This document shows positions 1,554 through 5,827 of a DNA stretch of 37,325 bases, piece after piece. The stretch's first letter is position 1. Each line of letters opens with the position of its first letter. The stretch is from NCBI GenBank assembly GCA_005843805.1, contig SZXY01000073.1, positions 1 through 37,325 on the forward strand, written 5' to 3'. The position numbers were made by a program, and so were the translations under genes. The DNA comes from Chlorobium sp. (GTDB taxonomy: Bacteria > Bacteroidota > Chlorobiia > Chlorobiales > Chlorobiaceae). The notes under the pieces were generated by a model. The model made no database searches. It had not been told where the DNA came from and saw only the letters and a program-made list of their open reading frames with translations.

Positions 1554-1910
1554 TCAAATTGATCCCTTACAGTTAGGAGCACCACAAGAACATTCGAAAG
1601 GTGCTGCTATTGCGGACTCATTGAGTGAGTAGTCGAAGGTGATCTCATCACCGATATTAATATCTCTGAGAGCGATCATAAGCTCTCGCTGTTTGTCAAT
1701 GGAGCAGTTTGGATCACAATGATGGTTGACATATCGGCCAAATGGATGATCAATGTGTCTCTTGGCTAACTCAATAGTCCTGAGATCCCGAGCTGAACTT
1801 TCTTCACCTATGCTGAGATCCATTACTATTTCACCTTCTTTGTAAAAATTGACCGCATAGACTCCCAGAAATCCCTTGCCTTTACCAACACCAATACCAA
1901 AAACTTTCAT
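1554..1910 (-). CDS. Stand-alone SET-domain methyltransferase, 118 aa
   Basis: A minimal SET domain. An N-terminal glycine-rich segment (GIGVGKGKGFLGVYA, about residues 5-19) matches SET motif I for S-adenosylmethionine. The pseudoknot motif VNHHCDPN lies near residue 61, GDEITFDYS near residue 87, and a post-SET Cys triad (CSCGAPNC) at the C-terminus can form the usual zinc site with the Cys of the NHxC motif. SET enzymes methylate lysine side chains. It is the last gene of the minus-strand cluster, 126 bp after the ABC exporter; that AT-rich gap may carry its own promoter. The substrate is unknown; the gene context suggests it acts with the ATP-grasp-SET fusion. Confidence 0.85.
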   Translation of the reverse strand: MKVFGIGVGKGKGFLGVYAVNFYKEGEIVMDLSIGEESSARDLRTIELAKRHIDHPFGRYVNHHCDPNCSIDKQRELMIALRDINIGDEITFDYSLNESAIAAPFECSCGAPNCKGSI

Positions 1911-2036
1911 TGTAAGCCGGTTAAATTTTTTTAAACATATATATCATCAAGCGTAAGCTTTTTCAGAAAAAAAGCGGTGCGCTGTTTTTTGTGCGTCAAA
2001 ATGTCAGGCTACAAAAAATGGTTGCCCGGCATGACT

Positions 2037-3794
2037 TTAACTGGTGCTGGTCAAACCGGTTTCTTCAAGTTTTTCGGAGTGATTCCAAAAACGCACATAC
2101 AAACCGTTATTGTTTAACAGTTGGGTATGACTGCCTTGTTCGACGATAGAGCCTTTGTCCATGACAAAAGTCATATCGGCTTCAACTGCCAAATTAAGTT
2201 TATGGGTAATTGCCACTATTGTGCATTGGCTTCGAAGTTTCAGGATGGTTTTCAGGATATCCTGCTCTGTCAGCGGATCGAGCGCTGAAGTGGCTTCGTC
2301 AAGAAGCAGCAGCAGTGGTTCACGCACCAAAGCGCGAGCCAGTGCAATACGCTGACGCTGTCCACCCGACAACAGCCCGCCTGATTCTCCGCACAATGTT
2401 TCGTATTGCTCTGGCAATGACATTATGAAGTCATGTATTTCTGCCTGCTTTGCAGCTTTTTCAATGGCTTCCTGGTCTGCCTCAAGTTTTCCCATGCGAA
2501 TGTTCTGTGCAATGGAGAGGTTAAAGAGATTGACTTCCTGGGCAACAACGCCTATGCAACTGCGAAGTAACTGGGGATTGACCAGGCGGCTTTCCATTTT
2601 GTTTATAAGGATATGCCCGGTTGTTGGCTCATAAAAACGCAGTAGTAAATTGATGAGCGTGGTTTTGCCTGCTCCGCTGGGCCCGACGAAAACGGTAAAG
2701 CTTTTTGGTTCTATCTGGAAGCTGAGGTCGTTCAACACCGACTGGCCGTTGCCATAAGAAAAACCAACATGGCGATACTCAATTGCCCCGGTAAAGCGAA
2801 CCAATTCATTGTCATTGTGCGGCTCTTCCGGGGGAAGAGGTACTTCGAGCACCTCCTGCAGGCGCTGCATGGCGGCTTTGGCTGAAGACAGGTTTGGGAT
2901 TATCCAGGTCATGTGGTTAATCGCAGCACTCATGCTGACAAAAATGATCTGGTACGAGACAAGGGCGCCAACCGACATCTTGCCCTGCATTACAAGCAGC
3001 CCTGCAGCAAACAGGACAAGTATATTTAAGAGCAAAAACGCCAGATTGGGCATCCGCTGTGATATGTAAGAGAAAAAATTGGCTCTGCTGGCAACTGTAA
3101 CGAATTGGTTCAACTGATCACGGTATTGCCCGGTGACGTGGTTTTCCAGTCCGTAAGCTCGGATCATTTTAAAGGCACGCAGATGTTCCTGTAAAAATAT
3201 TCCCATCTGCCCGTTATAACTACACAATGCATAATTGGCACTGTTGGTTTTTTTTGCCAGCAGATATGGTGAAGAGAGGCAGACAAGTATACCAAGGAGT
3301 ACGCCGGAAAATAAGAGTGGACTTAGTTGCAAGAGCAGCGCTGAGGAGATCAGTAATTCACCTATGCTGAGGAATGCAGCAGGCAATACGATCACCAGGG
3401 CGTTATCAACATTTGTGGCATCCGAGGTAAACCTTGACATCAAATCGCCAGTGCTTTGCCGCTCATGGTATTCGAGTGGAAGCAGTTGCAAGTGGCGGAA
3501 CAGGTCGTGGCAAAGGTCGCTGAAAATTTTGGAACCATATTTTGCCCAGTAGAAATCACAGGTGACGGAAAAAAAGCTGTAAACCACACCACCCAATCCA
3601 AAGAGAGCGAACAGCAGAAGAAAAATATCACTCTTTTTCTGGAGGATAACATCGTCAACCAGAAACTTGAGGCTATAGCGCAATCCTGCCTCATAGCTGA
3701 ACTCGACAGTTAATCCCAGCATGATGAACAGTACGTGCCAGCGATAAGGCCGAATGTAGTGCCACAGGTCAGTGGCAAACTTGAGATTACTCAT
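2037..3794 (-). CDS. MsbA-like ABC exporter (fused permease and ATPase)
   Basis: A 585-residue half-transporter: an N-terminal transmembrane domain of about six helices (residues about 18-310) followed by a nucleotide-binding domain. Walker A is GPSGAGKTT (371-379), the ABC signature LSGGQ (475-479), Walker B LLLLLDE ending at the catalytic Glu500, and the switch His is His531. The architecture is that of type IV exporters (MsbA, lipid, peptide and cyclic peptide exporters), acting as a homodimer in the inner membrane. There is no N-terminal C39 leader peptidase domain. It begins 38 bp after the ATP-grasp-SET gene on the same strand, so it is probably the exporter of whatever that enzyme makes. 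Confidence 0.93.
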   Translation of the reverse strand: MSNLKFATDLWHYIRPYRWHVLFIMLGLTVEFSYEAGLRYSLKFLVDDVILQKKSDIFLLLFALFGLGGVVYSFFSVTCDFYWAKYGSKIFSDLCHDLFRHLQLLPLEYHERQSTGDLMSRFTSDATNVDNALVIVLPAAFLSIGELLISSALLLQLSPLLFSGVLLGILVCLSSPYLLAKKTNSANYALCSYNGQMGIFLQEHLRAFKMIRAYGLENHVTGQYRDQLNQFVTVASRANFFSYISQRMPNLAFLLLNILVLFAAGLLVMQGKMSVGALVSYQIIFVSMSAAINHMTWIIPNLSSAKAAMQRLQEVLEVPLPPEEPHNDNELVRFTGAIEYRHVGFSYGNGQSVLNDLSFQIEPKSFTVFVGPSGAGKTTLINLLLRFYEPTTGHILINKMESRLVNPQLLRSCIGVVAQEVNLFNLSIAQNIRMGKLEADQEAIEKAAKQAEIHDFIMSLPEQYETLCGESGGLLSGGQRQRIALARALVREPLLLLLDEATSALDPLTEQDILKTILKLRSQCTIVAITHKLNLAVEADMTFVMDKGSIVEQGSHTQLLNNNGLYVRFWNHSEKLEETGLTSTS

Positions 3795-3832
3795 ATCGGC
3801 CCATTGGAAAGGATTTTCTCGTATTCACAAAA

Positions 3833-5311
3833 CTACGTTAGTTTTGATGACATTCGAGTAAGCCGTGTTTTGACATAATCTGAAACATGCCCTTCGTAGC
3901 GCAGCATAAAGGGGAGTGTGGCATCATTGCCTGTAATGTGGTGACGGCACTCCGCTTCACCGCACTCGCATTCAAATTCTTCCATCGTAGCGTGGCAGAA
4001 TGTTGCATAATCGAGAGTGATTTGTTCACCAGAACCGATAAAACGGCGGGCAACGAGATTGAGGTTTTCTAACCAGGCATTGGGATTGCAAGAGTGGTTA
4101 ATGGGCTTCCAGTCACGAGGATTTTTACTCCACATCACCCAGATTTCATCGGTGATCGGGTAAGCATATTGCCGAAGCCAGCGCAGGTTTTGGCTGTCCC
4201 AATGTTTTTCCGCATAGCTTAGCGATACCAGAACATGCTCTTGTTCTTCAAAGGCTTCGATAAGTTCGCCCGGCAGAATATCCCGGGTTGCGTACATTCC
4301 ATAAGCCTTTCGCGGGTAAAATTTTATCTTCCAGTTTTTAATGCGGTTCTGGCAGCGTTTCCATGCTGCTTCCTGCAGCAGCCGAAGAAATTCCCTGTGC
4401 CCATCTGGATAATTGAGCAGGATGAAATCAGCGCTTCCCGCATCTTCCGGGCTGTAGAAGACTCCGCAATTGGGGTTGATTTCCAGCATAAACAACTCTC
4501 CGTCAGCATTCATCCTGATATCGCACCGGCCATAGCCAGAGCCGTTCAAACCAGTGAACATTTGAGAAGATATGGTTCGAAGACGATTGTCAAGTTCCGG
4601 GTTATCTACCGGAAAGCAGTTCATGTCCTGGAAGCTGGCCCATTTCAAATCGAAGTGCTTGAAAGACTCTCCTTCTGGAAATGAAAACTCTACGGATGGG
4701 AAGACGACAGGGTTGGAAGGGTCTGCAGAATTCTCTGCGACCAACACTGTAAACTCTCTGCCTTCAATAAATTCTTCAATCAATGCCTCGCCAAACTCCT
4801 TGATAATTCGGTTGGCTTCAACGTGCAGCTCGATTGGTGTTTCTACACGGGAACTCTTTGTCATGCCAATGCTTGCATAGCTGTTTGGATGCTTGACAAT
4901 GAGGGGAAAACGTAAATTCTGGCCAGCTTCCCTAATATCAGCCTCTGTTTTAACAAAGCGATGCAGCGGAGTATCGATGCCGAAGGAGCGTGCCACACGT
5001 TTCATATCTTCGCGTGTCGGATCGTAAAAATCAGAAGCTGCACCGGTAAACGGAGCATTAAAATTTTCAAGTGTCTGCACTACCTCTATACCAGCACAGT
5101 CTGAGTCAAATGAGCCATCGCACAGATTGATGAACAAATCGAAGCCCTGCTGGATGAGTGCCCGAACCTGTTGAACGGCAGTAGCTTTATGAATGTCTGC
5201 CATTTCAACGTCATGATCTGTCAAGTACGGTTTTATACCTCTTAAAGGATCGTAATCTTTCGTTGGTGAGTCGGAATACTCATAGGAAGAGTAGAGTACA
5301 CATAGTTTCAT
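3833..5311 (-). CDS. ATP-grasp ligase fused to a SET methyltransferase domain
   Basis: A 492-residue two-domain protein. Residues about 1-320 form a D-Ala-D-Ala-ligase-like ATP-grasp enzyme: an N-terminal subdomain (INLCDGSFDSD, EVVQTLE, PFTGA), the ATP lysine Lys140 (PLIVKHPN), the IEEFIEGRE hinge (about 178-186) and metal-binding Asp264, Glu277 and Asn279 (LEINPNCG). Residues about 328-460 form a full SET domain: AYGMYATRDI, NHSCNPN (405-411), GEQITLDY (428-435) and post-SET CECGEAEC (448-455). The predicted chemistry is ATP-dependent amide bond formation and lysine methylation. ATG 5311 is preferred; TTG 5320 is an upstream alternative. It lies 9 bp after the upstream SET gene's stop. The substrate is unknown. 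Confidence 0.88.
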   Translation of the reverse strand: MKLCVLYSSYEYSDSPTKDYDPLRGIKPYLTDHDVEMADIHKATAVQQVRALIQQGFDLFINLCDGSFDSDCAGIEVVQTLENFNAPFTGAASDFYDPTREDMKRVARSFGIDTPLHRFVKTEADIREAGQNLRFPLIVKHPNSYASIGMTKSSRVETPIELHVEANRIIKEFGEALIEEFIEGREFTVLVAENSADPSNPVVFPSVEFSFPEGESFKHFDLKWASFQDMNCFPVDNPELDNRLRTISSQMFTGLNGSGYGRCDIRMNADGELFMLEINPNCGVFYSPEDAGSADFILLNYPDGHREFLRLLQEAAWKRCQNRIKNWKIKFYPRKAYGMYATRDILPGELIEAFEEQEHVLVSLSYAEKHWDSQNLRWLRQYAYPITDEIWVMWSKNPRDWKPINHSCNPNAWLENLNLVARRFIGSGEQITLDYATFCHATMEEFECECGEAECRHHITGNDATLPFMLRYEGHVSDYVKTRLTRMSSKLT

Positions 5312-5320
5312 AGCAGTCAA

Positions 5321-5827
5321 TCAATTAGTATGAGGTTCATTAACCGGTCGTTGTTCCGATAGATGCCCATGAAGTTTTTCCATGATATGGGGTGTAAATT
5401 TGTATCGGGGCAGCACCTCCTTGTTGAGATGCATCGCGCCTTTAATTTTTCCCAAACAGTTAGCACTTCGGCACCCGCAATCGAACACCTGCTCCATAGC
5501 CCATTCAGTCGAAGGATAAAAAAAGGTGATCTCTTCGTTCGCTTCGATATCACGAAGGCAGATAAACTCATGACGATTCACATCGACATAAATGTTAGGG
5601 TCACAACTGTGATTGAGATATTGAAGGAATTCTGGTTCGAGGTGAATATGGCAATGATGGTCTATTTGCATAGAAAGATAGGTGGGGTGCGTCACATATT
5701 CGCCGACAGAAAACCCATGTAATAACGATCCTGATAAATGACGGCAGGTTGTTCGCAGATGTTTTTGGCCTGAGAGAGGATCGATATAAAGGCCAAGTTT
5801 ATCCGTAACATCAGATAATTTCATCAT
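5321..5827 (-). CDS. Stand-alone SET-domain methyltransferase, 168 aa
   Basis: First gene of the SET/ATP-grasp/exporter operon. It contains LNHSCDPN, then NEEITFFYPSTEW (the second half of the SET pseudoknot with its tyrosine) and a post-SET cysteine cluster (CGCRSANC) that should bind zinc with the NHSC cysteine. A C-terminal extension of about 45 residues follows. The N-terminal SET motif I is poorly conserved. The start is placed at the tandem ATG ATG (5827/5824), because the longer reading frame back to 5908 adds a hydrophobic, non-family segment; a GGTGG six bases upstream could act as ribosome site. It is predicted to be a SAM-dependent lysine methyltransferase; the substrate is unknown. 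Confidence 0.82.
   Translation of the reverse strand: MMKLSDVTDKLGLYIDPLSGQKHLRTTCRHLSGSLLHGFSVGEYVTHPTYLSMQIDHHCHIHLEPEFLQYLNHSCDPNIYVDVNRHEFICLRDIEANEEITFFYPSTEWAMEQVFDCGCRSANCLGKIKGAMHLNKEVLPRYKFTPHIMEKLHGHLSEQRPVNEPHTN

Follow-up and report, generated by a model that had tools for sequence, protein, structure and literature searches.

It is fairly probable, in our judgement, that a four-gene cassette on a Chlorobium sp. contig serves as a small unit to make and export a methylated amino-acid conjugate. The cassette joins two stand-alone SET proteins (SET1 and SET3), a fusion of a D-Ala-D-Ala ligase (Ddl)-type ATP-grasp domain to a third SET domain, and an ABC exporter. In the mechanism that we propose, the ATP-grasp domain would use ATP to activate a carboxylate and couple it to an amine, with two amino acids as the most likely partners. 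The fused SET domain, SET1 and SET3 would move methyl groups from S-adenosylmethionine onto the conjugate or onto a building block that is still free. Methylation on a side-chain nitrogen or sulfur would make the product cationic, and the exporter would remove it from the cell. Small-molecule substrates, the order of these steps and the product as the cargo of the exporter are what we infer. A co-functional unit is supported by linkage that is conserved across phyla, by an exporter that varies in type but not in role, and by SET domains nearest to a small-molecule methyltransferase, BurB; as BurB acts on free methionine, a small-molecule pathway is the best reading.

The initial annotation of this DNA had proposed that the cluster makes, methylates and exports a lysine-containing peptide or amino-acid conjugate, or else modifies a carrier protein. 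Linkage, exporter exchange and kinship with BurB support the making, methylation and export of a small molecule, but not the 'lysine-containing' part, which had been drawn from the SET fold by itself, whereas BurB, the closest relative of known activity, puts its methyl group on the sulfur of free methionine (PMC12542666). For the carrier-protein alternative we found no positive evidence. More tentatively, the cassette could represent an undescribed class of bacterial metabolite pathway, shared by Chlorobia, other Bacteroidota and Gemmatimonadota, where Ddl-type ATP-grasp enzymes fused to and teamed with SET enzymes make an exported, methylated (onium-type) amino-acid conjugate. If this is true, SET enzymes would become established small-molecule tailoring enzymes, with BurB no longer the single exception, and a conserved unit that groups three distinct SET domains with an exporter and a ligase of peptide-bond type, and that has relatives in two phyla, would reveal a broader role for bacterial SET domains in metabolite chemistry. 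Proteins that now carry the label 'protein-lysine N-methyltransferase' would also gain testable functions, and the cassette would hint at a compound that green sulfur bacteria, among them the cultured Chlorobium ferrooxidans, export.

Gene content and distribution in Chlorobium

All four genes lie on the minus strand of the window, the whole stretch of 37,325 nucleotides that was analysed. The first, SET1 (5321..5827), encodes a stand-alone SET protein of 168 aa (Pfam SET, 38.6 bits), and is followed by the ATP-grasp-SET fusion (3833..5311; 492 aa; Dala_Dala_lig_C, 65.9 bits; SET, 40.2 bits), by an ABCB-type ABC exporter half-transporter (2037..3794; 585 aa; ABC_membrane, 107 bits; ABC_tran, 109.7 bits) and finally by SET3 (1554..1910), a stand-alone mini-SET protein of 118 aa (SET, 41.9 bits). 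Every one of these domains scored above its curated Pfam cut-off. The intergenic gaps are 9, 38 and 126 bp, and the initial annotation had the four open reading frames, their strand, coordinates and gaps right; the open reading frames listed from 5908 and 5320 are longer than the genes, as relatives place the starts at 5827 (SET1) and 5311 (fusion). The window's genome (2.38 Mb) contains four SET matches, three of them within this 4.3-kb cassette. With dN/dS values against relatives of 0.03–0.21 for all four genes, the cassette is under purifying selection.

Among 61 Chlorobium genomes, nine contained the fusion (G000, which is the window's own, and G003, G007, G015, G027, G066, G067, G070 and G082), so that eight genomes beyond the window's carry the cassette, and the fusion was absent from the other 52 sampled. 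The carriers of SET1 and SET3 were the same nine, save for genes cut off at contig ends. Gene order and orientation were identical, and spacing close, in every complete Chlorobium locus, with the exporter always at the same position, and loci were incomplete only at contig ends. The fusion is 84–88% identical within Chlorobium as against 36–53% outside, and SET3 is 86–92% identical in seven other Chlorobium loci. The named relatives of the window's DNA are members of Chlorobium and Chlorobiaceae, and C. ferrooxidans DSM 13031 is one of them. The surroundings of the cassette represent at least four different genomic contexts in Chlorobium: flanks are common to two loci (L026 and L028) and partly to a third (L027), while those of the window, L025 and L039 match neither each other nor these. 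Either the cassette itself has thus been mobile or the DNA around it has undergone rearrangement.

Some kind of SET match occurred in 56 of the 61 Chlorobium genomes, and nearly all of the genomes that lack the cassette hold just one, unrelated, core SET gene. A separate SET protein with an N-terminal stretch resembling a membrane helix is present in nearly all Chlorobium genomes, near cobalamin-type biosynthesis genes (G000:C163 2297-2584, that is, L036 2156-2611; L054 5931-6395; L055 6686-7150). In two genomes of the same phylum, two adjacent tandem SET genes lie upstream of a UvrA-like gene (L031 6720-7963; L032 6653-7869).

The gaps between the four genes, 9–150 bp in seven loci, leave little room for a precursor peptide gene, and in Chlorobium the cassette is not accompanied by a precursor-supplying enzyme. 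An Rfam search upstream of the cassette returned no riboswitch. We considered and rejected an anti-phage defence system, since SET1, SET3 and the fusion had no match among the PADLOC models and the exporter had only generic ATPase matches; the phages searched contained no SET1 relative. The cassette is directly followed by an MntA-HepT type VII toxin-antitoxin pair (535-1364), which is encoded on the opposite strand of the window.

The SET and ligase domains

Almost all that is known of SET enzymes concerns the methylation of lysine in proteins. The three domains of the cassette have the features of SET-domain (class V) methyltransferases, namely NHxCxPN, a catalytic tyrosine motif and post-SET CxC...C. 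The initial annotation had given all three the NHxCxPN motif, the post-SET cysteines and an ExITxxY element; the first two hold throughout, while the last is found in SET1 (EEITFFY) and the fusion (EQITLDY) but not strictly in SET3, whose version begins with D (DEITFDY). The fuller signature of SET1 reads NHSCDPN ... FFYPSTEW ... CxC...C(L)GxIxGA.

Among sequences in the PDB, the best match was in each case BurB of Burkholderia thailandensis (PDB 9l4t, 9l4v), which outscored every protein methyltransferase for SET1 (E 6e-14), SET3 (1e-11) and the fusion SET (5e-9). This enzyme S-methylates free methionine, giving S-methylmethionine (PMC12542666, PMC7496086), and was in 2020 the first SET enzyme reported to act on a natural-product building block (PMC7496086). 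Like SET1 it is a small SET protein, of similar length; it shares its post-SET cysteines with the cassette domains, and it acts in small-molecule biosynthesis, as we propose for them. On the other hand, BurB has LHSC where the cassette domains have NHxC, and it belongs to a polyketide/DMSP pathway whose described steps from methionine to DMSP involve no ATP-grasp enzyme. In a tree, SET1 (support 90/91), SET3 (100/100) and the fusion SETs (96/98) formed three separate clades, which rules out that they are recent duplicates of each other, and all fell outside the clade that unites BurB with Eleftheria and Rhizobium sequences (100/99). The cassette SETs are thus, from their sequences, not orthologues of BurB, which is only a distant relative. 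The contacts of BurB to methionine are main-chain (PMC12542666), and so are not of a kind that sequence can check in the cassette SETs.

SET genes related to SET1 also occur on plasmids in small-molecule settings, in a polyketide cluster in Eleftheria and beside a group of PLP-enzyme, kinase, racemase and transporter genes in Tabrizicola. On Rhizobium plasmid p7, a BurB-clade SET gene lies between asparagine-synthase-like and S-adenosylmethionine decarboxylase genes (L143 4811-6723). Kinship with BurB raises the alternative that the cassette turns S-methylmethionine or a betaine-like amino acid into a compatible solute or stress metabolite, for which the pump would be an efflux valve: BurB makes S-methylmethionine for DMSP (PMC12542666), and the BurB-type SET gene of Eleftheria adjoins transaminase and aldehyde dehydrogenase genes. 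The cassette, however, has a ligase in place of the decarboxylase, transaminase and dehydrogenase of a DMSP pathway, and with SET1 and SET3 outside the BurB clade we regard this alternative as very unlikely.

The fusion consists of a Ddl-type ATP-grasp domain (residues ~1-310) and a SET domain (~335-460), and it aligns with D-Ala-D-Ala ligases at E 1e-17. It has in common with Ddl and the Ddl-type dipeptide ligases the ATP-grasp fold, a Lys and a Glu for ATP, and Asp, Glu and Asn for metal. Residues K140, E179, D264, E277 and N279 are invariant in 15 fusion homologues, and R262, at the position of the Ddl arginine, is kept in all aligned homologues; alignment with Ddl structures and conservation over the 15 fusions thus bear out the earlier view that the ligase keeps its ATP and metal residues. 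In contrast, the fusion missed every D-Ala-D-Ala ligase cut-off (the best model, PRK01372, gave 76 bits against 243), its SET domain has no counterpart in Ddl, and the C-terminal segment with which Ddl binds D-Ala is replaced by NPNCGVFY. As the ATP and metal residues are kept while the Ddl cut-offs and C-terminal segment are not, use of ATP and metal is likely and D-Ala as substrate unlikely; judged from these residues, the ligase probably joins amino acids or amines other than D-Ala. An AlphaFold2 model of the fusion, built on eight sequences, had a pLDDT of 36.9 and was discarded.

A Ddl-type ligase beside an ABCB/MsbA-type exporter would also suit the tailoring of cell wall or membrane, in which an unusual peptidoglycan-type dipeptide or a lipid-linked amino acid is methylated by the SET enzymes and flipped by the ABC protein. 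The wide miss of the ligase cut-offs and the exchanged substrate motif both argue against this, as do the absence of any cell-wall gene alongside the cassette and the MATE and MFS transporters linked to other fusions (below), which fit soluble small molecules better. We find cell-wall tailoring quite improbable, and retain the methylated, exported amino-acid conjugate as the preferred reading.

Relatives outside Chlorobium and their transporters

Fusions occur beyond Chlorobium in other Bacteroidota and in Gemmatimonadota, where the core of the cassette is found in recombined arrangements; phyla other than these two were covered by one genome-contig scan, which returned one Gemmatimonadota fusion (47% identity), plus plasmids. 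In a profile search, 16 of 150 Gemmatimonadota genomes proved to carry a full-length fusion. Four of these fusions are stand-alone genes and resemble the Chlorobium protein more closely (44–49% identity), while the other twelve are more distant (~36%) and each has a further Ddl-type ATP-grasp gene immediately upstream, which overlaps or almost touches the fusion gene in most of the distant loci examined. In one Gemmatimonadota locus (L072 7548-9976) the fusion overlaps by 4 bp a radical SAM gene, possibly a further tailoring enzyme.

Within Bacteroidota the fusion was present in 16 of 394 genomes, seven of them from outside Chlorobium. Overall, fusions outside Chlorobium usually come with a second ATP-grasp gene, and several with a SET1 orthologue, recognised by FFYPSTEW or near variants together with GxIxGA. 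Such orthologues adjoin ATP-grasp or fusion genes in four Bacteroidota loci (L107, L108, L109 and L113) and one Gemmatimonadota locus (L080); in L113, SET1 lies beside the ATP-grasp partner and the fusion is on another contig. At a profile threshold of E < 1e-28, SET1 occurred in 15 of the 394 Bacteroidota genomes and together with the fusion in 14, far more often than expected by chance, which gives Fisher p = 9e-23, or 3e-9 outside Chlorobium (approximate total 350), values uncorrected for kinship and thus too optimistic, as related genomes are not independent. One genome (G462) has SET1 and the fusion far apart, and another (G434) has SET1 without the fusion. The four stand-alone Gemmatimonadota fusions and two from Bacteroidota have no linked SET1, and most of these have no obvious exporter. 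We did not find SET3 beside fusions in the Bacteroidota and Gemmatimonadota loci outside Chlorobium. The search for the same gene neighbourhood that the initial annotation suggested shows that the genes do co-occur across genomes and phyla, contrary to the possibility, also raised there, that they never would.

The exporter of the window has an intact Walker A (GPSGAGKTT), LSGGQ, LLLLDEATSALD and H-loop. 'MsbA-like', as it was first described, is too loose a term: the MsbA equivalog models fell far below cut-off (TIGR02203, 327 bits against 602; PRK11176, 275 against 867), and among solved structures its closest kin are exporters of the ABCB type, for example the bile salt pump and P-glycoprotein. 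The ABCB-type exporter stands beside the fusion in Chlorobium; in its place are a PF13748 (ABC_membrane_3) ABC transmembrane protein without an ATPase domain in L084, L107 and L109, a MATE protein in L077, L078 and, by similarity, L076, and an MFS/ATG22-like protein in L071. Several other fusion loci have no transporter nearby, and a transporter next to the fusion is therefore a tendency, not a rule. The interchange of unrelated transporters at this position suggests a small product that crosses the membrane.

These exchanges also bear on the alternative of a protein-modifying system, in which the ATP-grasp domain adds an amino acid to a protein, the SETs methylate lysines there or on a partner, after the manner of enzymes that modify tubulin or histones, and the exporter is incidental. 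Most characterised SET enzymes do act on protein lysine, and the fusion SET also scores against MLL1. There is in addition a precedent, albeit a catalytically inert one, in TTLL12, which joins a SET-like domain to an ATP-grasp-type domain of the TTL kind (PMC3520985). Nonetheless, the ATP-grasp domain here is of Ddl and not of RimK or TTL type, all three SETs score better with BurB than with any protein methyltransferase, and four unrelated kinds of transporter adjoin the fusion. Moreover, related genes have neighbours that work on free amino acids, and the cassette comes with no conserved candidate target protein. Protein modification is thus unlikely in our view, and export of a small methylated conjugate remains the reading that we favour.

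Known systems and related gene groups

TTLL12, a eukaryotic protein, is like the fusion in having SET-like and ATP-grasp-type domains in one chain (PMC3520985), but the order of the domains is opposite, the ATP-grasp domain is of TTL and not Ddl type, and the catalytic residues are lost. Its context is cytoskeletal and chromatin-related, and there is no evidence for a common origin with the fusion. Closer in overall composition are graspetide and other ATP-grasp peptide clusters, which centre on an ATP-grasp ligase and in many cases also have an ABC exporter and a methyltransferase (PMC8939145); the cassette differs from them in its Ddl-type ligase and apparently also in having no precursor peptide. 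A survey of ATP-grasp peptide clusters does not mention SET domains (PMC8939145). We found no description of a bacterial ATP-grasp and SET gene set in the literature searched, which excluded the 2009 amidoligase survey (doi 10.1039/b917682a). The initial annotation, which knew of no described pathway with this gene set, thus agrees with our search, and the cassette looks like a variant of ATP-grasp metabolite clusters that is undescribed in that literature.

Other Ddl-like ATP-grasps that the ligase search matched lie with enzymes of free amino acids, among them lysine 2,3-aminomutase (KamA). In a Chlorobium genome free of the fusion, SET, KamA-like and Ddl-like ATP-grasp genes adjoin on one strand (L049 6663-9402; G034:C19). 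A plasmid of Thioflavicoccus carries a Ddl-like ATP-grasp gene with diaminopropionate-type (Dap-synthesis) genes and KamA. Finally, a group of two ATP-grasp genes and KamA recurs within the window's phylum (L029, L030, L115, L148 and L149), and some of its loci also encode a GNAT-like acetyltransferase or an M24-type peptidase; in L115, L148 and L149, KamA and the two ATP-grasps are found with an acetyltransferase-like protein. This group looks like another lysine-derived small-molecule pathway.
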